Shown here piece by piece: positions 25,264 through 46,086 of a DNA stretch of 64,000 bases (position 1 is its first letter; the number at the start of each line of letters is the position of its first letter). Below the pieces are notes generated by a model. That model was not told the DNA's origin. It saw nothing but the letters and a program-made list of their open reading frames with translations, and searched no databases. Origin of the DNA: Hymenobacter mucosus (GTDB taxonomy: Bacteria; Bacteroidota; Bacteroidia; Cytophagales; Hymenobacteraceae); NCBI RefSeq assembly GCF_900188255.1, contig NZ_FZNS01000010.1:1-64000 (forward strand). The letters are read 5' to 3'. The position numbers and the translations under genes are program-made.

Positions 25264-25298
25264 AAGAAGGGCCCGGTCAGATTGACCGGGCCCTTCTT
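25264..25298. terminator. bidirectional terminator
   Basis: AAGAAGGGCCCGGTCA / TGACCGGGCCCTTCTT, 16-bp perfect stem with a 3-nt loop, between the plus-strand TPR gene and the minus-strand peptide gene. Confidence 0.85.
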
Positions 25299-25316: not shown

Positions 25317-25469
25317 TTATGCTTTGGTGGGGGCTTCGTGCTCCACCTGCGGGCCGTCCTGGGAGGCCATCGACCATGCAGTTTCAAGGCGTTGGTCCAG
25401 CTTTTCAACCTGGAAGTTGGCCGCTACCTGCTCTTCGCTGGTTTGGGGGGTGTTCATGGGCTTGCTCAT
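25317..25469 (-). CDS. 50-residue peptide, possible RiPP precursor
   Basis: ATG at 25469, stop at 25319-25317. N-terminus MSKPMNTPQTSEEQVAANF, then VEKLDQRLETAW, then an 18-residue tail SMASQDGPQVEHEAPTKA. The amphipathic FQVEKLDQRLE stretch resembles a leader helix of the kind bound by PqqD-like domains, and the M50 protein encoded next to it has such a domain. It is last in a three-gene operon. It lacks Cys and has only one Trp, so if it is a precursor the modification is not a common lanthipeptide or sactipeptide type. Precursor status is an inference. Confidence 0.5.
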   Translation of the reverse strand: MSKPMNTPQTSEEQVAANFQVEKLDQRLETAWSMASQDGPQVEHEAPTKA

Positions 25470-25520
25470 GGGTAAAAGTAAATAAGGGTTTGTACTCCGA
25501 GGAAAGATGAACCCACCGAC

Positions 25521-26723
25521 CTACTCGGCTAGAATCGGTGGGGTTAGTGTATTCGCTGCCGCGCAGCGGCGAAGAAGATAACTGGCCAGTAAGCGCCCCC
25601 ACACCAAGTAGAAGGCGGCGGCAATCAGCTGCTGCTCACTGATGGCGGCGGTGCCCTGTAGCAGCCCCATCAGCAGGGTCGGCACCTGGGCAGGCAACCG
25701 GAGAATGGCCTCCCCATGATGAAACAGCGTCAGGCTCAGCAGCAGCACGAAAAAGAAGCTGTTGCCCAGCCCGTATAGCAGCAAAGCCATCTTGGGTCGT
25801 AGCAGCACTTTTCCGCGGCTTGTAAGCACCCGCAGGGCGCTGGCACGGGTGAAGGCTTCTCGAACGACCTGCGTGGCGCTGAGCAGCAGATTTGGCTGGT
25901 TGGTCAGGTCGGCCAGCATCCAGTAGCCGTCCCGGCGCACAAATGGATTAAACTGCCAGATGGCTGAAACTGTGATAGTCGTGCTGGCCAGCAGTAGGGC
26001 GTGGGAATCCGTCGCCACATACGCCAGGGCCAGACCGGTGGCCAGCAGCAGCTGCGCCACGATGCCGCCCAGGTTGGCAATCATGCGCTGGTGCCGTGAG
26101 GCTTCCCAGATGCCGGTGATATCAGCAAACAGGACCGGAAACACGTAGGCGTAAAAGCCAAAGCCAATCCCGCCGTGACGGATTCCCAGCCGGGCACACG
26201 CCGCAATGTGGCCTACCTCGTGCAACAGTACCGAACCATAGAGCAGCGGGATAACCACGGCATATTCGGCAATGCCCGCCCCGCGTATGGGAGTGCTTTT
26301 AAGCAGTATTCCTCCCAACAGCCCTATTTGAGCGGCAACGAGCGGCCAGAATACAGCCGGCCGGTACAAGGGCCGCAATGGGACGGCCAGTAAGCCAGCA
26401 GCAGTAGGAGATAGCAACGGTATCTGCAGGGCGATATGATCCAGCAAGGACCGCGCATCGACCGGCGGGACCGGCTCATCACGAAGTAGTGAGCATCCAC
26501 CGAAGCGGCCGGTAATCAGCCGGGTAAACTGCTCGATGTCAAACGCAGTCTGAAATGTCTGATTGAAACGCTCCAGTGCCTGCGCGATGGTCGGGGACTG
26601 CAGCAGAATACGGTACAATTCCGCCGCGTCGGCATTCACGCGCACATATTGACCTGACGGGGCCGTAATCAGCCACGTTTGCTTGTCGAAGGCGCTCAGG
26701 CGCGTATTATCCACCAGTAGCAT
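25521..26723 (-). CDS. membrane M50 metalloprotease with PqqD-like N-terminus
   Basis: 400 residues. Residues 1-75 (LSAFDKQTWLITAPSGQYVR, then a short helical part) look like a PqqD-type peptide-recognition domain. Then come about eight transmembrane segments with the zinc motif LLHEVGHIAA (HEVGH near residue 168) and the second signature NPFVRRDGYWMLADL typical of site-2-protease relatives in peptide-modification loci. Probably an intramembrane protease that cleaves a peptide. Starts 4 bp after the isoprenoid-like gene; the peptide gene follows 51 bp downstream. Confidence 0.7.
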   Translation of the reverse strand: MLLVDNTRLSAFDKQTWLITAPSGQYVRVNADAAELYRILLQSPTIAQALERFNQTFQTAFDIEQFTRLITGRFGGCSLLRDEPVPPVDARSLLDHIALQIPLLSPTAAGLLAVPLRPLYRPAVFWPLVAAQIGLLGGILLKSTPIRGAGIAEYAVVIPLLYGSVLLHEVGHIAACARLGIRHGGIGFGFYAYVFPVLFADITGIWEASRHQRMIANLGGIVAQLLLATGLALAYVATDSHALLLASTTITVSAIWQFNPFVRRDGYWMLADLTNQPNLLLSATQVVREAFTRASALRVLTSRGKVLLRPKMALLLYGLGNSFFFVLLLSLTLFHHGEAILRLPAQVPTLLMGLLQGTAAISEQQLIAAAFYLVWGRLLASYLLRRCAAANTLTPPILAE

Positions 26724-26727
26724 AAGT

Positions 26728-27660
26728 TTAGGCTACTACCGTGTCGTCAGTCATTGATACGTGTTCCACCTGCATCCGAGCCTGGTCAACAGTGTGCTGC
26801 ACTCGGCTCATTTGTTGGCAGTAGGTGGCAATGCGCGGCCTCAGGTAGGCAGCCAGCTGCTCCAGCCCGAGCGACGTGGCCAGATCCAGGCTGCGCTGGT
26901 AATGCTGGCACCCGAGTTCCATCAGCCTGAGCGCTACACCTGAGGTATAGAGATACTTCTGCTGCAGGCTGACTGGTACTTGGTCGGGGTCTATGTTGTG
27001 CTCCATCAGCCAGGCCGATACCTCGGAATGAGCATAGGTATACTGGTTCTGTTCCCAGTCCTGCACGAAATCTTCAATGTCATCAAAATACTGGCTGCCG
27101 ATATGGATGCCGGCCAGACAAGCCAACACCTCGTCTACAGGGGCAGAATTCTCCCCCAAGCAGCTCATGGCATAAGCCATTGCAAAACAGATGGCTGATT
27201 TGCCGGCAGCCAGCTCCTCGAACTGCTGCACTGTTAGGGCCGGGCGCAGCTCAGCGTACTTCTTTTCCTCCAGATTGGCGGCCATGTAGCGCTGCTTGCA
27301 CTCATCGAAATGAACCCAGAACGGGCTGCCATCGGGGAAAAGCCTCGTTAGCCCGTGTACGGCCGTCTCCTGCAGGGACATTACTTCAAACAGGTGGCGG
27401 GCCTGCAGGGCACCCTGCTGGGTGGCCGGCGAGTCCACCAGCTTATCAATCCCAATAATGAAGCTGAAATACAGGTAGCTGTGAATGGTTAGCTCCTCCA
27501 GCTGGGGCAGGCGCACGTGCGGAAACAGCGGGGCCAGAAATTGGGGTAGCTCCACGTAGAATACGTAGGCATTGAGGGTTTTCGCCCCGATAAGCTGCTG
27601 TTTGAACTGCTCGCTGATGCTTAGCTCAGCGACGAACTGCTGAAGGGCCTGGGTGAACAC
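26728..27660 (-). CDS. class I isoprenoid-synthase-like protein
   Basis: 310 residues, GTG start. All-helical. Two acidic clusters are placed as in class I prenyl-transferring or terpene enzymes: IIGIDKLVD (D72, D76) and GSQYFDDIEDFVQD (D193, D194, E196, D197, D201). Length also fits. The first motif is not a classical DDxxD, so activity is uncertain. It leads the operon with the M50 protease and the small peptide; it might modify the peptide with an isoprenoid or make a separate terpene. A shortened homologue is at 45367-46086. Confidence 0.6.
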   Translation of the reverse strand: MFTQALQQFVAELSISEQFKQQLIGAKTLNAYVFYVELPQFLAPLFPHVRLPQLEELTIHSYLYFSFIIGIDKLVDSPATQQGALQARHLFEVMSLQETAVHGLTRLFPDGSPFWVHFDECKQRYMAANLEEKKYAELRPALTVQQFEELAAGKSAICFAMAYAMSCLGENSAPVDEVLACLAGIHIGSQYFDDIEDFVQDWEQNQYTYAHSEVSAWLMEHNIDPDQVPVSLQQKYLYTSGVALRLMELGCQHYQRSLDLATSLGLEQLAAYLRPRIATYCQQMSRVQHTVDQARMQVEHVSMTDDTVVA

Positions 27661-27773
27661 GGTACCGGATTTATTGCTGCGTGGGATTGCTTAGTACCAG
27701 GGCGAAGCTGGGATACACGCGTAACATTCCGGATTCTTGGAGGCCGCCCGTTACCTGCCGCTCATTGGTTCAT

Positions 27774-27781
27774 CAAACATA
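27774..27781 (-). promoter_or_regulatory. -7 box of the isoprenoid-like operon
   Basis: TATGTTTG on the minus strand, a perfect TAnnTTTG, 16 bp downstream of the 18-bp palindrome at 27798-27815 and 113 bp before the GTG start. Confidence 0.65.
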
Positions 27782-27797
27782 GCAAGTAAATCTTTAT

Positions 27798-27815
27798 GCT
27801 ACTAAAATTAGTTGC
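27798..27815. promoter_or_regulatory. 18-bp palindrome family, site 5
   Basis: GCAACTAATTTTAGTAGC on the minus strand. It overlaps the expected -33 region, so a protein bound here would compete with or recruit RNA polymerase. Confidence 0.65.
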
Positions 27816-35368: not shown

Positions 35369-38032
35369 TCAGATGCCTTTGACTAAGTTGAGAAAGTCGT
35401 CCAGCTTGTATGCTCCATCTACAACCCGGCGTTCATACACCATGAAGAAACGGAATGCGTTACCGGCTTTCTGAACCCAGTACTCACCCAGTTTGATTTT
35501 CTGCTCCGCATCGAGGTGATCTCCTTTGGTTTCTACCATCAACGTTTTGCCGCTCTTGGTCTGGATGATAAAGTCGGGATAGTGGTTTAGAAACCCATTA
35601 ATCCGGAAGCCTTTGCGCTCCAGATTACGCGTCCAGAAGGCAATGTTGGGAAGGTTGGCCAACTCGTTGATAACCCGTTCCTCAAAGCCATTGATCTTGC
35701 CTTCCTTTTCGTAGAGCGACTTGGCAATGTCCTTGCCCGTGTCGCCCGGCGTAATCTGAGCCGGCAGCGCATAGGAGGGCTTCATCAGGATTTTATCCTG
35801 ATCGAGGAAGTTGCGAAACTGTTTCAGCGCGTACGCCTCCGACAGCTGCCGGATTTTGTCTTTTATCTTCTGGGTATAAGTATGCTCATGATTAGCAAAG
35901 TCCGTAAACTGTTCATCCGTAAAGTCCTCCAGAATGCGCTTTAGGTAGCGCTCAATCTCTTTGTCGGCAATCGGGTACAGATTGCCGATGAGGCTCATGA
36001 TACGGCTCGTAAAGTTCTTTACGCGGCTTTCCTTGCGGGACGGATCGAGAATGAACGTCATAATGCGCTCCTTCGCGTCGCCGTCGATACGGGTGAAGGT
36101 GGGGGTTGCTTCCTTTTTGGTTTCATCCAGATCCACGCGATAGAGTTCTGAGGAAACCCCATCGAACTTGATGTCCGTATTCTCCTTCCCGAGCTGGAAG
36201 CCTTCGAGGAGATAATCCTTTTCCAGCAAAACAGTATCACCTTCTCCGCTATCAAAAAGAGTGGCGGAAGGCTTTTTCCAGAAAAACTGGGGAAGCAATA
36301 ACGTTGCTGCCTGCTCACGGAATAGCTCTTTGACGGGGTATGTTTTCACGAGCGACTGGAGGGCTGTTGGGAGGAAAGGAGCACCGCTGGCTGTGCTGGC
36401 GGCTACAGTTTTTTCAAACTCAGCCTGTTGAGCCAGGGCCACTTCTGTAATGGCCAGCACCGAACCCGCCGCTGGCGTGGCAGGAAGTACCTGTGGGTGT
36501 GTCACCGATACGGCCGAGGCTGCTTCATCCGTTACCGGCTCGACGGGAGCAATCTTACCGAAATCAATATCGGCCAGTTCATCGGCCGCAGACGACTGAG
36601 TAGACGGCCCATCGAAGTTTAGAGGGGCTTGCACGAAGCTGGCCAGCGGATCAGGCTTAGGAGTTAGCGTATTAGCATCAGCTACTTTATAGTCACGGGA
36701 GCTAAAGCCGGCTTTATTCAGGCCCACCACGATTTTGTCGAGCGTATCTAGAAACTTGCTGGAGGCCGTCAGCACGTAGCTCATGTTGAGCATGGGCGCC
36801 TGATGCGGGGCAACATATGGCTGGCGCAGCACGCGTCCCAGGATCTGCTCCACGTCCACGGCCGACGACTTATCGGCCAGTGAGGCCAAGATGTAGGCAA
36901 ACGGCGCGTCCCAGCCCTCTTTTAAGGCATTCACCGTGATGATATAGCGAACCTGGCACTTCGGCGATGACAGGTCCTCATTCTTCAGCTCGTTGAGCCC
37001 AGCCGTTTTGATGCGTATATGTTCAGCCGGGATCTTGCGGTCGATGAGCTTCTGTTTCAGCAGCTCGAAAGTCGTATTGTCATCGGCTGTCTTAGGCTGC
37101 GCCTGAAACAGCACAATAGGACGGATATAACGGCCGCCTTCCTTTTGCTCCCTCTTGGCTTGAAGCTCCAGGTTTCGCTGCAGCTGCAAGGCAGAATTAA
37201 TGACTTCAGTCCGGTCGTTGTGATTGTAAACGATAACCGGCAACTTCACCATGTGCTCCTTTTTCAGGGCCAGGGCATCTACGAAGCTGATAATGTTGCT
37301 GTTCTTGCGCGGGGTAGCCGTCAGGTCAAGAATAAAAGCCGGGTTCAGATTTTTGAGCATGTCCACGCTCAGATCACTTTCGGCGTTATGGCTTTCGTCA
37401 ACAACTACTACCGGATTCAAAGCCTGAATTACGCGCATGAGGGTGATATCTTCCTCATCGCCCAATAGAGTACCGAAAGACTGTAAGTTGCCGTTTTCCT
37501 GGTACACCTTGCGGTCCTCCTTGTTGCGGGCCCGCAACGAGTCGAAGCTGAGCACTACCAGGCTCAGCTGCTCCTGCACCGAACTGGCCGAAAAGCCGCT
37601 ACCCTGCAGTAGCGCCGTTTTATCATACACTTCCACGCGGCCGGCGAAGTGCGTGCTGATTTTCTGCCGGTAGGGGTGGCCAGCGTTTTTCAGATTGCGC
37701 AGCGTCTGCTCCAGAATCGTGACGGAGGGCACCAGCCACACTACCGCTTTGGGGCGGTCGGGAGGAAAAGCGCTGAATATCGTGCGCAGGGCATTGGCCG
37801 CCAGAAACGTTTTTCCGCCAGCAGTGGGCACCTTGACGCATACGTGTGGCACGCCGGGTACAGTGTTTTTGTAGGGCTCCACGGCCGCGCTGGGAAAGGG
37901 CTGCAGGGGCGTACGCGGGTGCATGGCCCAGAAGTCGTGGAACGCGTCGGGCAGGTTCTTGGTGGCCTGCACGCAGTCTAGAAAGCGGGCTAGGTCAGTA
38001 ATAACCTCCTGCTGGTAGGGTTTTAGCTCCAT
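35369..38032 (-). CDS. res: type III restriction enzyme, Res subunit
   Basis: 887 residues. Superfamily 2 helicase: Walker A VPTAGGKTFLAANAL, box II VVVDESHNAE, motif III LDLTATPRKN, motif VI QILGRVLRQPY. A low-complexity linker rich in Ala, Pro and Ser (around residues 460-540) separates it from the C-terminal nuclease, where NHYPDFIIQ then LMVETKGDH gives the PD...ExK site. Cuts DNA lacking the Mod methylation pattern after ATP-driven movement. 12 bp downstream of mod. Confidence 0.9.
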   Translation of the reverse strand: MELKPYQQEVITDLARFLDCVQATKNLPDAFHDFWAMHPRTPLQPFPSAAVEPYKNTVPGVPHVCVKVPTAGGKTFLAANALRTIFSAFPPDRPKAVVWLVPSVTILEQTLRNLKNAGHPYRQKISTHFAGRVEVYDKTALLQGSGFSASSVQEQLSLVVLSFDSLRARNKEDRKVYQENGNLQSFGTLLGDEEDITLMRVIQALNPVVVVDESHNAESDLSVDMLKNLNPAFILDLTATPRKNSNIISFVDALALKKEHMVKLPVIVYNHNDRTEVINSALQLQRNLELQAKREQKEGGRYIRPIVLFQAQPKTADDNTTFELLKQKLIDRKIPAEHIRIKTAGLNELKNEDLSSPKCQVRYIITVNALKEGWDAPFAYILASLADKSSAVDVEQILGRVLRQPYVAPHQAPMLNMSYVLTASSKFLDTLDKIVVGLNKAGFSSRDYKVADANTLTPKPDPLASFVQAPLNFDGPSTQSSAADELADIDFGKIAPVEPVTDEAASAVSVTHPQVLPATPAAGSVLAITEVALAQQAEFEKTVAASTASGAPFLPTALQSLVKTYPVKELFREQAATLLLPQFFWKKPSATLFDSGEGDTVLLEKDYLLEGFQLGKENTDIKFDGVSSELYRVDLDETKKEATPTFTRIDGDAKERIMTFILDPSRKESRVKNFTSRIMSLIGNLYPIADKEIERYLKRILEDFTDEQFTDFANHEHTYTQKIKDKIRQLSEAYALKQFRNFLDQDKILMKPSYALPAQITPGDTGKDIAKSLYEKEGKINGFEERVINELANLPNIAFWTRNLERKGFRINGFLNHYPDFIIQTKSGKTLMVETKGDHLDAEQKIKLGEYWVQKAGNAFRFFMVYERRVVDGAYKLDDFLNLVKGI

Positions 38033-38044
38033 ATCGGCCGGATA

Positions 38045-39628
38045 TTAAAAGCGCGAAATGTCGCGGGGAATTTTTTTGAAGATGATGCCGTGCCGGGTCA
38101 TAAACTCAGCCGGGAGCAAGCAGTTATCGGCGTAAATAATGTACTGGCCAGCGCGGGTGCGCATGGTGGCCAGAAAATTATGGTTGAGAGTAGTTACGGC
38201 GTCCGGATCGTAATGGAAGTAGTAGGCCGTATTATCATGTTGGGCCAGAAAAGCATCATTGTCGTCGTTCGAGGGAGCGGGCAGCGGCTGCTTGGTTTCG
38301 GCGTAATAGATGTACCGGCGCAGGCCTGCCAGTCCGGCCTGCTCATTCAGCTCACCGGAGGCTGTAAATACAGCCTCCCCCAAGGTGTAGTAGTCGAAGC
38401 TACCACCAGTACCAGGTTGGCTGGCATACCCCTTCATGACCCGCTTCACCCGTTCCGCTGTGATGTGCTCAGCGTAATCTTCCATCTCCGTCAGGATGAA
38501 CTTACGGTTACCACCATCCTGCTGATTCAATTTTAGTACGGCATGGGCTGTAGTACCACTGCCAGCAAAGCTGTCAAGGATTATGCAATCTGGATCGTGC
38601 GGGTCCGTCACTTGTCCAATCAACATCTCAGGAAGTGCCACTGGTTTCGGAAAGTCGAAAACACCCTGGCCCAGAATTGATCCTATAATTTTTGTTCCCT
38701 CCGCAGTACTGGTGGACGTAATGACGGAAGAAATAGACTTGTATTGACTGGCCATTTCGTCGGAAAACACCTTTTGACGGGGCCGACCATCTGGTGACGC
38801 AGGAAATAGAATGCGCCCTTCGCTAACACGTTTGGCCATTGTGTTTTTATCAAAGCGCCATCCCTTGTGAGGCGGGGGATAAATATCACCTGTAGTTGGA
38901 TTAACCAAGTCATAGTGAAGGTTGGGCCGCTGCTCCTTCGTTGCCAAGCCCGTAACGTCAGCACTCCTCCATGGGCCCCGCGGGTCATTATCTGGGTTCG
39001 AGAACTTTGTCAAATCCTTCTCTACGCCGCGTAACTTCACTAAATCAGTTTTACGATAAGTCAGGATATATTCATGATCATTCGATACGCCTGTAACAGC
39101 TCTTGCATCCTCACTAACCCTTGATTTCCAGATAAATTCGGTGACAAATTGTGCCCGCCCGAATATCTCATCCATCACGATACGCAGATATGAGATTTCA
39201 TTGTCATCAATTGAGATGAATATAATACCATCATCCGCTAGCAGTTTATGCAGCAGCTTCAGACGCGGGTACATCATACACAGCCACTTGTCATGGCGTG
39301 AAAGATCTTCGCCTTCTTTGCCCACTACTTGACTGAGCCACTTCTTGATTTTGGGGTCGTTAACGTTGTCGTTGTATACCCACCCTTCGTTCCCGGTGTT
39401 GTAGGGAGGATCTATGTAGATGCACTTAACCTTATTCTCATATTCGGGCAACAGAGCTTTCAGGGCTTCGAGATTGTCACCGTGAATGATGCGGTTACCG
39501 CTGTCGGCTGGCTCGGTAGTTTGAGTACCGTCGGCTAGGGCACCGTACTGGTGGTCAAGGAGCCGAAAAGGAACGTCCTGGTGATGGTTGATAACCTTAT
39601 CTTTACCAATCCACTGAAGGGTAGGCAT
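38045..39628 (-). CDS. mod: type III DNA adenine methyltransferase, Mod subunit
   Basis: 527 residues. Beta-class N6-adenine methylase: catalytic motif IYIDPPYNTGNEGW precedes the SAM motif DSFAGSGTTAHAV. The region between, including KSRVSEDARAVTGVSNDHEY, should hold the target-recognition domain. Methylates one strand of an asymmetric site that the Res partner reads. Divergent from the CBASS operon across a 157-bp gap. Confidence 0.93.
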   Translation of the reverse strand: MPTLQWIGKDKVINHHQDVPFRLLDHQYGALADGTQTTEPADSGNRIIHGDNLEALKALLPEYENKVKCIYIDPPYNTGNEGWVYNDNVNDPKIKKWLSQVVGKEGEDLSRHDKWLCMMYPRLKLLHKLLADDGIIFISIDDNEISYLRIVMDEIFGRAQFVTEFIWKSRVSEDARAVTGVSNDHEYILTYRKTDLVKLRGVEKDLTKFSNPDNDPRGPWRSADVTGLATKEQRPNLHYDLVNPTTGDIYPPPHKGWRFDKNTMAKRVSEGRILFPASPDGRPRQKVFSDEMASQYKSISSVITSTSTAEGTKIIGSILGQGVFDFPKPVALPEMLIGQVTDPHDPDCIILDSFAGSGTTAHAVLKLNQQDGGNRKFILTEMEDYAEHITAERVKRVMKGYASQPGTGGSFDYYTLGEAVFTASGELNEQAGLAGLRRYIYYAETKQPLPAPSNDDNDAFLAQHDNTAYYFHYDPDAVTTLNHNFLATMRTRAGQYIIYADNCLLPAEFMTRHGIIFKKIPRDISRF

Positions 39629-39785: not shown

Positions 39786-40805
39786 ATGGAAACAGAAGAA
39801 AAGACATTTAAAATCTTGTGCATAGACGGGGGCGGCATCAAAGGGCTCTACTCAGCTACAATTCTACAGCACTTGGAGGAGCAGTTCGACTGCTGCATCT
39901 CTGACCGTTTTGACATGCTGTGTGGCACGTCTACGGGTGGCCTCATAGCGCTGGCTCTTTCCTTAAGAATCCCTGCTGCTGAGATAGTCCAATTCTATCG
40001 GGAAGAAGGGGCCAATATCTTCCCGCAGTACACAAAAAGCCGTTGGATTCACCGCTTCATCAGCGGTTTCAAGCAGATCACTTGGAATGGCAAGTTCAGC
40101 GATGAGCCTTTAAAGAAAGCCTTGCAAAAGGTGTTTGGTGAAAAGGTACTGGGGCAAAGTGAAAACCTGCTTTGCATTCCATCCTACACTATCACGGATG
40201 CCCGGCCCTGGATTTTTAAGTTCGATCATACGGAGGGAAAGCTGAACCGCGACAACGGCATCCGCTACGTGGATGTGGCACTGGCCACCAGCGCTGCTCC
40301 AACCTATTTTCCCGTGGCCGAGAACCCGGACTATCACAATAAGCAGTTCATTGATGGTGGGGTATGGGCGAATAATCCCACGTTGGTTGGCTTTCTGGAA
40401 GCCCTGACCTACTTCGTTGGCAAGGACAAGGAATTTAAGAAGCTCAGTATCCTCTCCGTAAGTAGCCTCACCCTGACAGGTGGTACCCGAACCGGTAAGA
40501 AACGGAATAGATCCTTTTTTGGGTGGCGTGACTCGCTGTTTGAAACGTCCATGACGGGTCAGAGTCATTTCACGGATCACTTCATGACCAAGATGAATGA
40601 GGTAAACGACGTGGATGTGAACTACCTGCGCATTCCCAGCCCGGACATATCGCACGAGCAGGCCGGTCAGGTGCAATTAGACGTGGCTACTGAAAATGCC
40701 CTGGACTTACTGGCTGGCAAAGGAGATGATCAAGGCCAACGTTTCCGAAAAGACCCCAGAATTGCTGAATTCTTCGCCCACCCCAAACACTACAAAACCC
40801 ACTAA
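39786..40805 (+). CDS. capV: CBASS patatin-like phospholipase effector
   Basis: 339 residues. Patatin motifs: oxyanion loop IDGGGIKG (13-20), nucleophile GTSTGG (S49), and catalytic Asp in FIDGGVWANNP (D190). In CBASS this enzyme is switched on by a cyclic nucleotide and degrades the inner membrane, killing the infected cell. First of four genes in order capV, CD-NTase, cap2, cap3, matching type II CBASS. Confidence 0.9.
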   Translation: METEEKTFKILCIDGGGIKGLYSATILQHLEEQFDCCISDRFDMLCGTSTGGLIALALSLRIPAAEIVQFYREEGANIFPQYTKSRWIHRFISGFKQITWNGKFSDEPLKKALQKVFGEKVLGQSENLLCIPSYTITDARPWIFKFDHTEGKLNRDNGIRYVDVALATSAAPTYFPVAENPDYHNKQFIDGGVWANNPTLVGFLEALTYFVGKDKEFKKLSILSVSSLTLTGGTRTGKKRNRSFFGWRDSLFETSMTGQSHFTDHFMTKMNEVNDVDVNYLRIPSPDISHEQAGQVQLDVATENALDLLAGKGDDQGQRFRKDPRIAEFFAHPKHYKTH

Positions 40806-40808
40806 TAC

Positions 40809-41813
40809 ATGGCTAATTGCGACTCTATTTTCAAAGTGTTTGATGAGGATATTATCCTCCATGATACCCGGCGTGATAGCCTGAAAAAATCGCGTAAGGC
40901 ACTCCGAAACCGCATCAAGGAGTATTTCAAGGAGGAGAAGCCAGACGAAATCAAGCCTAAGTTTTATGGCCAGGGCTCCTTCATGATGGGCATTGCCATC
41001 AACCCCATTCCGAAGGTTGTCACGGAGGATGGGAAGGAAGTGAGCAAGCACAAATACGACGTGGATGACGGTATCTACTTCATCGGCAAAGAGTCGGAAC
41101 GTAAAGCAGTCCAGACCTACCACAACTGGATCTGGGATGCGGTAGATGGCCATACCGATACCCCTCCGGTTGACAAAAACACCTGCATCCGGGTGATTTA
41201 TCACGACGGCCACAACATCGACCTGCCCATTTACTTTCTGGTCAAAGGCGACGACGATGCTGTGCCCCAACTCGCTCACAAATCCAAGAGCTGGCTGGAC
41301 AGCGACCCCCGGGAGTTCGTGACGTGGTTCACCGGTATAGCCGACGCGCAGAAAAAGGACCAGCTACGCAGCCTGGTTCGGTACATGAAAGCCTGGGCCG
41401 ACTACCAAAACAACTCTTCCGGCACCAGTAAGATGCCCCCTGGCATGGTAATGACCATTTGGGCGGCAGAAAACGCCTGCTACAACGAGCGGGACGATGT
41501 TGCCCTGCGCGATACGCTGCAAGCCATTCGCGATACGCTCACCGATGCGTTTGAATGCAACCGGCCTACCGTGCCGGCGGGGGAAAATCTGTTGGATGAC
41601 TATAAGTACGAGGAGTACTTTCTTGGCCGGCTCGATGCGTTTCTGGAGTCAGCTAAACAAGCGGTGAACGAAACCAACCAGAAAACGGCCTGCGGAAAGT
41701 GGCAGACTCACCTGGGCCCGCGTTTTCCCTGTCGCCTCGCGGAGGATAAGGACATGGGTGCCCGGGCTTACGGTACCCCGGCCATTATTCAGGAGAATGC
41801 GAAAAGTGCCTAG
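40809..41813 (+). CDS. DncV-like CD-NTase (CBASS cyclase)
   Basis: 334 residues. Nucleotidyltransferase core: GQGSFMMGIA (G56, S57), KYDVDDGIYF (D84, D86) and HNIDLPIYF (D138), the pattern of clade A, DncV-related enzymes. Somewhat shorter than V. cholerae DncV. It should make a cyclic dinucleotide that activates CapV. The C-terminus IIQENAKSA ends in Ala, as expected for a CD-NTase whose tail is conjugated by Cap2. Starts 3 bp after capV. Confidence 0.88.
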   Translation: MANCDSIFKVFDEDIILHDTRRDSLKKSRKALRNRIKEYFKEEKPDEIKPKFYGQGSFMMGIAINPIPKVVTEDGKEVSKHKYDVDDGIYFIGKESERKAVQTYHNWIWDAVDGHTDTPPVDKNTCIRVIYHDGHNIDLPIYFLVKGDDDAVPQLAHKSKSWLDSDPREFVTWFTGIADAQKKDQLRSLVRYMKAWADYQNNSSGTSKMPPGMVMTIWAAENACYNERDDVALRDTLQAIRDTLTDAFECNRPTVPAGENLLDDYKYEEYFLGRLDAFLESAKQAVNETNQKTACGKWQTHLGPRFPCRLAEDKDMGARAYGTPAIIQENAKSA

Positions 41814-43565
41814 ATGATGGATTTCAAACGAGCCCGGCAGCAGGCACTCACGCAGCTGCAGCTGACCAACTGCTGCCGGGTTCTGAGTTCAGGTGAAGTT
41901 GCGGCGCGCAAGCTCAAAGAGTTTGTGGAAGTCTGGTTGCTGGATGCGGAAGTATTCGGCCCGGATGATCAGGTCCGGCCGCTGCAGCTGCTGGTGGGAC
42001 TGCCGGCTGATTTCCCGCTGGTGCTGCCAACCATCTACCTAGAGCGAGCCGACTACCAACAGCTTCGCTACCTGCCGCACGTCGATACCTCGGGCCTGGT
42101 ATGCACGTTCGACCCGGAAACCGTTCGCGTTAATCCGGAAGATCCGGGGGGCATTGTGCGCGACTGTGTGGCTCAGGCTCGACGGTTGATTGAGCAAGGC
42201 CTGGCGGGCACAAATACGTCCGAATTCCAACAGGAATTCATTGCATACTGGGAAAACGAGTACGGAAAGAATGATGAGGTAGCGGGTGGGATTTCCTTAA
42301 CGGCCACGCCGTTACCAGCTGGCCCCTGTTCACTGCTTCATCTGGCCAGAAAGTTTGGCGGCTACAGATTGATATTACCTGGTGCTGACGCCGACACTAC
42401 CCAGTTCAAAGAAGTCGTGCAACGGCAGGGCATTGCCATCGAGCCGTGTCCTGCTTTTCACCTGGGCGAGCTGGGAGAGGTTCAGCCGCCATTTGCGCTC
42501 AGCAACGGGACGGCGTTATCACTAGTACAACAGCATTTCCCCGGCCAGTTGGCTGCCCTGCAGCAGTATCTGAACGGCGCCACGACGCCCCCTCTCGTCC
42601 TGTTTCATAAGCTGCTGGCCGGCCAGGTGCGCTACTTCGGCTGGTGGCATGCCCTGCCCGGACTGAACCGCAAGGGGTTCCGCCCGGGCAAACTCTCCGC
42701 CGTCGAGATACTGACCAAATTTGAGCGTCCTCGTCCCGTACAACGCCTCAGCTTTGATACGCTGACCGCACAACGCCTGACCCAACGCACAGCCGGCGAA
42801 ATACCTGCCAGGAAGTATACCTTGCTGCTGGCTGGCCTTGGTAGTATCGGCTCCAATCTACTGCACTATCTGGCCTCTTTTCCCTTACAGGAAATGCGTC
42901 TGGTGGACCCCGAAAAACTGGGTCTGGAAAACGTGCCCCGTCACCTACTGGGCATGGAATACGTGAACTTTGGAAAGGCAGAAGGCCTGCAGCGCTACCT
43001 GGAGCAGCAGCAGCCGCTACGCCGGGTAACCATCCGGAAGGATTCCATTGCGCAGGTGGCCCTGCAGGAACCGGCTTACCTGAATGAGTGTGATGCCATA
43101 CTACTCGCTGTCGGCCGTAGTGCTGTCGAGCAGTACCTGATCGAGCTGCAGCGTCAGGGGGTGCTGACGCGCCCCCTATTCATCCTGTGGGTTGAGCCCT
43201 ACCTTGCTGGTGGCCACCTGCTGTACTTTCCTCCTAGAAGTGAGGTCAATTATACTAGTCTGTTCGACGATGGCTACTATATCTACAACGTGGTGGCCAC
43301 CGACGAGTACCGCAAGCCCCAGCACCGGATGCTGTTAAAAGAGGCCGGCTGTCAGACCAGCTACGTGCCCTACTCGCAGGAATATGTTACGCTGTTTTTG
43401 AGTCGTGTGCTACCCGAATTGCGCGGGCTGCTGCGGGCACCTTCTGCGGATGCTTGGGCTTACACGTGGCTGGGCAACGAGGAGGCCCTGCAGCAACAAG
43501 GCCTGGCCAAGTCAGCATTTGCCAGCGACATGGCGGAGGGTGAGTTAATCAAAACAAAACTGTAG
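41814..43565 (+). CDS. cap2: CBASS E2-E1 fusion protein Cap2
   Basis: 583 residues. The N-terminal E2-like domain has its likely catalytic Cys at C97 (SGLVCTFD). The E1-like domain has the ATP-binding LLLAGLGSIGSNLL (G341, G343, G346), the acidic D365 in RLVDPEKLG, and a C-terminal Cys C513 (KEAGCQTS). Cap2 ligates the CD-NTase C-terminus to a target and raises its activity. It begins right after the CD-NTase stop codon. Confidence 0.9.
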   Translation: MMDFKRARQQALTQLQLTNCCRVLSSGEVAARKLKEFVEVWLLDAEVFGPDDQVRPLQLLVGLPADFPLVLPTIYLERADYQQLRYLPHVDTSGLVCTFDPETVRVNPEDPGGIVRDCVAQARRLIEQGLAGTNTSEFQQEFIAYWENEYGKNDEVAGGISLTATPLPAGPCSLLHLARKFGGYRLILPGADADTTQFKEVVQRQGIAIEPCPAFHLGELGEVQPPFALSNGTALSLVQQHFPGQLAALQQYLNGATTPPLVLFHKLLAGQVRYFGWWHALPGLNRKGFRPGKLSAVEILTKFERPRPVQRLSFDTLTAQRLTQRTAGEIPARKYTLLLAGLGSIGSNLLHYLASFPLQEMRLVDPEKLGLENVPRHLLGMEYVNFGKAEGLQRYLEQQQPLRRVTIRKDSIAQVALQEPAYLNECDAILLAVGRSAVEQYLIELQRQGVLTRPLFILWVEPYLAGGHLLYFPPRSEVNYTSLFDDGYYIYNVVATDEYRKPQHRMLLKEAGCQTSYVPYSQEYVTLFLSRVLPELRGLLRAPSADAWAYTWLGNEEALQQQGLAKSAFASDMAEGELIKTKL

Positions 43566-43572
43566 CCCAGCT

Positions 43573-44025
43573 ATGCTCTATCAGATTGGCAAGCATACCA
43601 TTGTATTTCACGTAGGCGCCTTACGCATCCTGGAACACTACATCCAGCGCGGAAAAAAACAGCCTGAAGCCGGCGGAATAATATTGGGCAAACTCATAGG
43701 GGACGAGATCCACATCATGCGGCTGTCAGTGCCCACCCTATTCGACAAAGCATCCCGTTACAACTTCGAGCGCCACGCCCATTCCGCCCAAATTGTCATC
43801 GACTACGAGTTTCACAACAGCGGTGGGGAGATGATCTACCTGGGTGAGTGGCACACTCACCCGGAACCGCATCCTACCCCCTCGGGAACAGATAGGGATA
43901 TGATTCGCAAGCAGTATCATAATAAAGGCAGGAATACAGATTTTCTTCTGTTAGTCATTCAAGGCCTGGAATCAAAGTACGTGGCCATTATGGAAAACGG
44001 CCACCTGACTGAATACGCCAGCTGA
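43573..44025 (+). CDS. cap3: CBASS JAMM protease Cap3
   Basis: 150 residues. JAMM zinc site complete: E32 (PEAGGI), H94 and H96 (EWHTHPEPH), S104 and D107 (PSGTDRD). Removes CD-NTase from Cap2-made conjugates, counteracting priming. Last gene of the operon, 7 bp after cap2. Confidence 0.92.
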   Translation: MLYQIGKHTIVFHVGALRILEHYIQRGKKQPEAGGIILGKLIGDEIHIMRLSVPTLFDKASRYNFERHAHSAQIVIDYEFHNSGGEMIYLGEWHTHPEPHPTPSGTDRDMIRKQYHNKGRNTDFLLLVIQGLESKYVAIMENGHLTEYAS

Positions 44026-45366: not shown

Positions 45367-46086
45367 TTAGGCTACTCCTATGTGCTGGTGGCCGACGTAG
45401 TGTACCATATGCCGCCGCAGAAACGCGCCCAGCTGTGGTAAGCCCAATTGCTCGGCCAAGCTCAGGCTGCGCTGGTAGTGGGCGTGGGCGTGGTTGATAG
45501 CGGGCTGGTGGTCCTCCCGGTCGTCGTAATACTGGCTGGCCAGGTGAATGCCAGCCAGACATTCCAGCAGCGGCTGCATGGAACGGCCCTGTTGGTTGAG
45601 CGTGGCCAGCGCGTGCACGATGGCGTAGCAGATAGCCGCTTTACCGGCTGCTACCTCCTCTACTTGGTCCTCATCCCATACCTGCTGCTCGGTGCATTCC
45701 CGCTGCAGGCGCTGCGCCTCCGCGTAGCGGCATTGGCACCGGTGATAGTACTGCCAGAAATCCTGCTCAGGCGCAAATAGCCGTGACAAGGCTCGAACGG
45801 CGTACTCGTGCAGGGTAAGGCAGTCAGTGAGCTGCTGGCGGGTCGGGCCGCCCTCTTGGCTCAACAGTTGATCGGCCGTCAGCACGAAGCGAAAGTAGAG
45901 ATAGTTGTTGACCGTCAGTTCATCGAGCTGGCTAGCACTCACACCGGGAAACAGCGGGGCCAGAAGCGGCGGCAACTCTAGGTAAAACAGGTAGGTCTGT
46001 AACTCCATTTCACTACCAAGTTGCTCCTTGAAGCTGGCGCTTAGGGGCAGAGGGGCAAGATGCTGACGCAGTACCTGTAATGACAT
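45367..46086 (-). CDS. shortened isoprenoid-synthase-like homologue
   Basis: 239 residues, homologous along its whole length to 26728-27660 (TYLFYLELPPLLAPLFPGV against AYVFYVELPQFLAPLFPHV, and CLAGIHLASQYYDDREDH against CLAGIHIGSQYFDDIEDF). About 47 residues after the second acidic motif are missing, joining DDREDH directly to HYQRSLSLAEQLGL. The first motif lost one Asp (ADQLLSQ). Catalysis is therefore doubtful. Its promoter has the same palindrome-16 bp-TAnnTTTG layout. Confidence 0.6.
   Translation of the reverse strand: MSLQVLRQHLAPLPLSASFKEQLGSEMELQTYLFYLELPPLLAPLFPGVSASQLDELTVNNYLYFRFVLTADQLLSQEGGPTRQQLTDCLTLHEYAVRALSRLFAPEQDFWQYYHRCQCRYAEAQRLQRECTEQQVWDEDQVEEVAAGKAAICYAIVHALATLNQQGRSMQPLLECLAGIHLASQYYDDREDHQPAINHAHAHYQRSLSLAEQLGLPQLGAFLRRHMVHYVGHQHIGVA

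Follow-up and report, generated by a model that had tools for sequence, protein, structure and literature searches.

A three-gene operon in Hymenobacter mucosus that probably encodes a minimal pathway to a tryptophan-prenylated peptide

We analyzed a 64,000-nucleotide stretch of Hymenobacter mucosus DNA (RefSeq assembly GCF_900188255.1, contig NZ_FZNS01000010.1, positions 1 to 64,000; hereafter the window) that carries a minus-strand operon encoding, in order of transcription, a protein with an isoprenyl-synthase-like fold (P), a membrane metalloprotease of the M50 type (M50), and a short peptide. This operon is probably a minimal pathway for a ribosomally synthesized and post-translationally modified peptide (RiPP), in which P prenylates tryptophan 32 (Trp32) of the peptide and M50 binds and removes the leader. 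Open reading frames (ORFs) were found where the initial annotation of this DNA had placed three closely spaced genes, with intergenic gaps of 4 bp between P and M50 and 51 bp between M50 and the peptide gene (Table 1).

The genes of this operon were found together, not apart, in most of the genomes surveyed, the outcome to be expected if the initial annotation was right to join them. A genome-contig scan with the single P protein returned 13 pattern matches, none of which was a relative, while the same scan with an alignment (A1) returned 26 loci, and M50 adjoined P in 26 of 26. Among 204 genomes of the family, P was matched in 15 and a strong M50 match lay directly beside it in 14; in the exception, genome G097, the match to P covered just 49 residues. 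Five further, weaker matches to M50 (E = 6e-45 to 1e-11) were located away from any P. A sample of the phylum contained P in 11 of 395 genomes, the window genome included, with M50 in eight of the ten new loci. After removal of seven repeats of the same contigs (L034-L039, L046) from 50 rows, the set comprised 43 distinct loci (numbered L), in 41 of which M50 was encoded on the same strand as P within 4 kb. This count leaves aside the second copy of P found in the window, the short match in G097 (L033), and the fragments of P at L017, L018 and L020; many of the counted loci were also in the alignments behind the P and M50 profiles. Nearly all P loci belonged to Bacteroidota, and the locus was also present on a contig of H. 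guriensis. Furthermore, the divergence of P was matched by that of M50 across 22 pairs (Mantel r = 0.89, reached by 0 of 2000 permutations), a correlation to which shared descent of the hosts contributes.

The window peptide contains a single Trp, followed by 18 residues, together with one His and neither Tyr nor Cys. In relatives, short genes with the motif [EQDA]x[LI]ExRxE, which by eye reads approximately LFxVEELEERLE, sit downstream or upstream of P-M50. The motif located a precursor in 38 of the 43 loci, or 39 when L023 was added by hand (its precursor was missed by the motif, and its peptide was itself part of the precursor profile); in the remaining four (L026, L043, L050 and L081) no precursor was recognized, the contigs of L043 and L050 being shorter than 5 kb. 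Trp followed the motif in 34 of the 39 precursor-bearing loci and in 52 of 58 distinct peptides, compared with 15.6 expected at an assumed Trp content of 1.25%, and was found in 0 of the 58 leader parts. Some of these peptides are tandem copies that hardly differ from one another (L030-L032); leader parts were started at the last ATG at least 4 residues before the motif, which shortened some of them; and the motif, itself free of Trp, was first noticed in Trp-containing Hymenobacter peptides. The first Trp was the third or fourth residue past the motif in 26 of the 52 Trp peptides; in the L030-L032, L053 and L059 branch it stood no more than three residues from the C-terminus. At L076, six tandem precursors combined near-constant leaders with very different cores, each of which carried a Trp. 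Ten precursors compared with Pfam and NCBIfam gave chance-level matches at most (best E = 0.01, below cut-off).

The small frame, whose lack of conservation would have counted against the initial annotation, proved to be conserved as a protein, with homologues in the same 39 loci and differences concentrated in third codon positions. The closest relative, L019 of the same genus, encodes a 49-residue homologue in the same place, and the two genes differ at 12, 8 and 26 first, second and third codon positions, respectively, over 49 codons; the corresponding NG86 estimates of nonsynonymous (dN) and synonymous (dS) divergence were 0.24 and 1.96, the latter saturated. Values of dN = 0.37 and dS = 1.26 were obtained for the window and L021 genes, and of 0.016 and 0.34 for the Pedobacter pair L041/L042; the YN00 method yielded no value for the two window pairs.

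Additional genes accompany some precursors. A gene of approximately 390 to 450 codons lies at a similar distance behind the precursor region in five loci (L041, L042, L044, L045 and L048), and in L041 (11366-12607) a CarboxypepD_reg-like domain was seen in it. One branch with P fused to a cyclase domain (described below) has two to five precursor copies in L053 (7123-15173) and in L030-L032, and L053 also encodes a P450 and a radical SAM/SPASM maturase (TIGR04463-like, below cut-off), which suggests further modification of the peptide there.

Searched alone, P gave only chance-level matches in Pfam (best E = 0.21) and NCBIfam (best E = 0.024), and phmmer, run to E = 1, found nothing among PDB sequences. 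With a profile as query, the PDB gave 32 matches under the same limit (best E = 2.9e-6), most of them to prenyl synthases. The AlphaFold2 model of P, built on a 22-sequence alignment, had a mean predicted local distance difference test (pLDDT) score of 94.4 and an all-helical trans-isoprenyl-synthase fold, which, together with the conserved Asp-rich motifs, agrees with the class I isoprenoid-synthase features first noticed in this protein. The 12 Foldseek matches of the model at E <= 0.001 comprised the MoeN5 prenyltransferase, trans-prenyl diphosphate synthases, structures related to these, and Ord1, which prenylates Trp (E = 3.4e-4 to 1e-3); VIA-align gave Z = 22.5 to hexaprenyl diphosphate synthase (3aqb_B) and Z = 20.4 to Ord1 (259 aligned residues, root-mean-square deviation [rmsd] 3.1).

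The residues conserved in P were compared with those of prenyl synthases. The first Asp-rich motif, DxxxD in P, is an exact DDxxD in L035, and K154 and D201, the latter associated with the second motif, were also among the residues invariant in the 22 sequences. Canonical prenyl synthases have an FQxxDD motif with a Gln at the place equivalent to Q190, and Arg residues that bind isopentenyl diphosphate are a hallmark of these enzymes. A Gln at this place was indeed visible in the canonical synthases of our PDB alignments, while no Arg was found among the invariant or nearly invariant P columns. The spacing Q190-x-x-D193 is that of Q216 and D219, which are mutated in Ord1 (Q216A, D219A; titles of PDB entries 9v4h and 9v4i). 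When the genome was scanned with PF00348, two genes scored over the cut-off, both on other contigs, and P was not matched, which argues that P is not a housekeeping synthase. Thus, P resembles the Trp prenyltransferases related to trans-isoprenyl diphosphate synthases (trans-IDS) in having a synthase fold outside the canonical family, Asp at positions 1 and 5 of the first motif, both of which are needed in ComQ according to a passage of PMC5331326, and the upstream Gln, which is non-diagnostic.

Strong support for the handling of prenyl chains by P came from relatives in which it is fused to a prenyl-chain cyclase. In 25 of the 43 loci, including L053 of Chryseobacterium, P continues into a C-terminal domain of the squalene-hopene/MstE type (C domain; profile built from twelve of the counted loci). 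The two examples scanned matched SQHop_cyclase_C with E = 5e-13 (L024) and 2.7e-13 (L030), and the L030 domain matched a 361-residue squalene-hopene cyclase chain in the PDB (3.9e-19) as well as MstE (4.5e-9 to 5.9e-8). The window P ends at 310 residues and has no C domain, and the sole match to PF13243 across the window genome, a weak one on a different contig, stayed below the cut-off (E = 3.6e-4). On the P tree, at least four label changes between stand-alone and fused forms were counted; 12 of the 24 inner branches were open, two rows were very long, and the starred branches force only one change. Isoprenoid use is also indicated in Idiomarina xiamenensis, the only member outside Bacteroidota among the loci found, in which an isopentenyl-diphosphate isomerase gene is located directly behind P-M50 (L047, 10006-10551, plus strand). 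At L079 (4218-5051) P is unfused, with roughly 0.8 to 1 kb between P and M50, the room of a cyclase domain, and the precursor is Cys-rich.

M50 matched Pfam PF02163 below the cut-off (E = 3.6e-4), and its nearest named family was the daptide protease NF041824 (daptide_HExxH; E = 1.2e-31, 110.3 bits against a cut-off of 300), followed by the YydH/LiaK epipeptide protease NF058609 (E = 5.5e-15, 56 bits, cut-off 225). By these sequence scores, M50 is a relative of the daptide protease and not a member of its family. The AlphaFold2 model (pLDDT 87.5) has N-terminal strands followed by helices and then a membrane part. VIA-align placed residues 1-84 on the TbiB1-leader complex (Z = 9.2, 81 residues, rmsd 2.8), and the N-terminal domain also aligned with another lasso B1 protein (Z = 7.8) and with PqqD (5sxy, Z = 6.7); the membrane part aligned with SpoIVFB, RseP and site-2 protease (Z = 7.6 to 8.4). 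TbiB1 was likewise ranked first by Foldseek with probability 1.00 at a weak E of 0.13, and nothing was found at E <= 0.001. These Z values are modest, yet each of the two domains fits a known fold of its own, in the part of the protein where it would be expected. M50 is thus predicted to be a site-2-type intramembrane metalloprotease with an N-terminal recognition element, and the PqqD-like fold initially suspected in residues 1-75 is predicted for residues 1-84. In one locus (L022, 8488-9611, minus strand, genome G102), M50 was matched as two overlapping pieces in different frames and is apparently broken, although the frames of P and of the precursor at this locus are open.

Conservation, co-occurrence, folds, leader and Trp were computed directly, and from them we propose the following course of events, in which the role of P draws on its modeled fold, its motifs, the fused cyclase and the conserved Trp, and that of M50 on its predicted fold and near-universal pairing with P. 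P would bind a prenyl diphosphate, presumably of C10 to C20 and supplied by the ordinary synthases of the cell, through the Asp-rich motifs, and would pass its prenyl group on to the Trp32 indole, probably before cleavage of the leader. The PqqD-like domain of M50 would hold the leader motif NFQVEKLDQRLE, and the intramembrane HExxH site would cut near the boundary of leader and core, around residue 29, to set free the core TAWSMASQDGPQVEHEAPTKA in whole or in part. Because the window P lacks a fused cyclase domain, the prenyl chain is expected to stay uncyclized, save for a possible pyrroloindole closure as in ComX, and the product may be a lipopeptide signal or antimicrobial. The operon has the general features of a RiPP pathway, namely a short precursor with conserved leader and core beside the enzymes and a predicted recognition element; the outline of such a locus that the initial annotation had drawn from recognition domain, protease and short peptide is accordingly supported by the shared leader, the fold of the recognition element and the pairing of the genes.

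Several observations weigh against this assignment. Ordinary prenyl synthases outscored Ord1 in the structural comparison of the P model, and the fold alone leaves the reaction unfixed. Q190, considered as a marker of Trp specificity, was dropped because canonical synthases share a Gln there and the residue does not discriminate. P has a full DDxxD as its second motif, a form described in part of the ComQ work (PMC5331326) as unsuited to Trp prenylation in that setting. M50 was not seen at L072, which lies near a contig end, or at L081, where the P match is weak, and at L026, which shares its contig with L037, P and M50 occur with no recognizable precursor. In addition, Trp after the motif was missing from the precursors of five of 39 loci (L049, L052, L056, L057 and L079), and the window holds a second, shortened P gene that lacks the stretch past the second Asp-rich motif and is accompanied by neither M50 nor peptide.

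The high structural score to true prenyl synthases and the complete second motif would also suit an enzyme of another kind, an unusual prenyl diphosphate or terpene synthase that releases a free isoprenoid, with peptide and protease forming a separate signal system. We consider this unlikely, since P occurred without M50 only at L072 and L081 among the 43 loci, Trp usually follows the leader motif in the precursor, Arg is absent from the nearly invariant P columns, and the PF00348 matches of the genome fall on two other genes. Thus, of the two options that had been raised for the isoprenoid-like partner, peptide prenylation is favored and a terpene made alongside is disfavored. A somewhat smaller chance is given to prenylation of another residue, or of Tyr in part of the family, with Trp kept for a purpose such as receptor binding. 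All seven loci of a Leeuwenhoekiella/Chryseobacterium branch (L049, L052, L054-L058) have leaders ending in ...LEERKEFTFY and Cys/Pro/Gly-rich tails, and in four of them (L049, L052, L056 and L057) the precursor has no Trp, so that Tyr may be the prenylation target in this branch. In the window precursor, by contrast, the lack of Tyr and Cys leaves Trp32 as the sole strong carbon nucleophile beside one His, and the characterized trans-IDS-like peptide prenyltransferases all target Trp and none Tyr, as summarized in a section of a 2026 review (PMC13290415). That the operon is a decaying remnant without a product, as transposase-, resolvase- and ArdC-like frames nearby (recognized by eye from translations) and the shortened second P gene might suggest, is very improbable given three intact frames, retained catalytic residues, and differences from L019 that fall mostly at third codon positions.

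Table 1. Positions in the window of the operon, its signals and conserved residues, and of neighboring systems
Feature	Position	Strand	Remarks
P gene	27660..26728	minus	310 aa, GTG start; confirmed ORF, first in transcription order
M50 protease gene	26723..25521	minus	400 aa; second in operon
Precursor peptide gene	25469..25317	minus	50 aa, or 46 aa from Met5; last in operon
First Asp-rich motif of P, D72-K-L-V-D76 (DxxxD)	27433..27447	minus	D72, D76 invariant in 22/22 aligned sequences
Second Asp-rich motif of P, D193-D-I-E-D197	27070..27084	minus	D193, D194, D197 invariant in 22/22
Q190 of P, before second motif	27091-27093	minus	kept in 19/22 aligned rows
PqqD-like RiPP recognition element, M50 residues 1-84	26472..26723	minus	predicted fold
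HExxH zinc motif of M50, H168-E169-V-G-H172	26208..26222	minus	H168, E169, G171, H172 invariant in 22 sequences; third residue variable
Proposed leader, residues 1-29, ending in NFQVEKLDQRLE	25383..25469	minus	motif common to relatives
Trp32, proposed prenylation site	25374..25376	minus	Trp after motif in 52/58 distinct precursors
Intrinsic terminator	25298..25264	minus	16-pair hairpin stem, T-rich tail, 3' of peptide gene
TATGTTTG, candidate promoter -7 box	27774..27781	minus	read by eye from sequence; weak
Second P gene, shortened	46086..45367	minus	239 aa, 42% identical to P over P residues 2-198
CBASS-type defense operon	39786-44025	plus	four genes: phospholipase effector, nucleotide cyclase, E1-E2 and JAB proteins (PADLOC)
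Type III restriction enzyme and methyltransferase pair	35369-39628	minus	PADLOC

The terminator hairpin lies behind the peptide gene on the same strand and thus closes the operon there. The candidate -7 box, TATGTTTG, fits the Bacteroidota consensus TAnnTTTG; no good -33 box was seen upstream of it when the sequence was read by eye. Two flanking genes scanned against Pfam and NCBIfam matched no daptide partner enzyme, kinase or regulator, and the PADLOC models that recognized two neighboring defense systems (Table 1) matched neither P nor M50. A relative of the second P gene was found in genome G091 as two fragments about 23 kb apart (L019, 17402-17869; L020, 9022-9270).

Prenylation of proteins and peptides is a hallmark of eukaryotes, and yeast a-factor matures by prenylation followed by the action of a membrane metalloprotease (Ste24). 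By analogy, we put forward tentatively, as one joint claim, that the loci described here might form a widespread RiPP class defined by a LEERLE-type leader, a trans-IDS-like prenyltransferase and an M50 protease with recognition element; that prenylation might anchor the precursor in the membrane and so present it to the intramembrane protease; that the window branch, without cyclase, might make linear-prenyl peptides; and that another branch might have moved from Trp to Tyr. Few bacterial Trp-prenylating enzymes have been characterized so far. The present system consists of three genes with one obvious target residue; its own protease has a domain predicted to bind the leader, and about forty relatives in nature, some with a cyclase domain and some lacking it, are open to comparison. 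It makes testable how leaders are removed from prenylated RiPPs, whether prenylation supplies an intramembrane protease with its substrate, and what the cyclase contributes, and it is a possible source of small peptide-lipidating enzymes.

Among known systems, the trans-IDS-like Trp prenyltransferases ComQ, PalQ and the P domain of ChrPC are described in a section of the 2026 review (PMC13290415), which also attributes cyclase domains to ChrPC and NctPC and cites Hubrich et al. 2024. The initial annotation knew of no established class with this combination of genes; it is not wholly new but a variant within a known kind, since peptide-Trp prenylating enzymes of this type, the three just listed, had already been described. 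The ChrPC-type peptide-terpene RiPPs are similar in that a trans-IDS-like P domain acts on an internal Trp of a ribosomal peptide (ChrPC, from the same section of PMC13290415) and in the fused cyclase of 25 of the 43 relatives, whereas the window P stands alone; its end at 310 residues without a C domain rules out a fused P-C maturase for this operon. MstE, a monodomain class II cyclase (PDB 6sbb-6sbg), is homologous to the C domain of the relatives and has no counterpart in the window. With ComQ/ComX the operon shares a stand-alone trans-IDS-like enzyme near a Trp peptide of about 55 residues and Asp 1 and 5 of the first motif. It differs in the second motif, which is DDIED as opposed to NDxxx or GDxxx in ComQ, in the position of Trp32 with 18 residues after it, compared with a ComX Trp third or fourth from the C-terminus (2 or 3 residues after), and in the M50 protease encoded beside the peptide, the ComX protease being described as unknown in part of PMC10853753. 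A ComQXPA quorum-sensing system was ruled out by the second motif and the Trp position. In PalQ/PalX of Paenibacillus, too, a trans-IDS-like enzyme prenylates Trp in a RiPP; PalX has a nitrile hydratase leader peptide (NHLP)-type leader and a C-terminal Trp, as described in a passage of PMC10853753, in contrast to the short LEERLE-type leader and internal Trp of the window peptide. Ord1 (PDB 9v4g-9v4j) is similar in fold and in the Gln/Asp spacing before the second motif, and farnesylates free Trp according to a passage of PMC13290415, while P is accompanied by a peptide gene.

On the protease side, NF041824 is an M50-type RiPP protease that aligned over M50 residues 13-352 and so covered most of the recognition domain; the scores to it and to the epipeptide protease NF058609 are far under the cut-offs, and the partner enzymes differ. 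The partners of the daptide protease are an aminotransferase, a dehydrogenase and a methyltransferase. The operon consists of P, M50 and peptide only, and no daptide partners were found in the two flanking genes scanned, which argues against a daptide pathway; the missing PF00348 match to P argues against a canonical trans-prenyl diphosphate synthase. Among the papers listed by our literature searches, none was identified by its title and the opening of its abstract as a description of an operon of stand-alone P, M50 and Trp peptide. The window operon is thus probably a variant of the recently described bacterial pathways to prenylated peptides, Trp-prenylating enzymes and M50 RiPP proteases (those of daptides) each being known separately; apparently new, subject to the contents of Hubrich et al., are a Hymenobacter branch in which P stands alone, the nearly constant pairing with an M50 protease that has a recognition element, the common leader, and the Trp-less branch.

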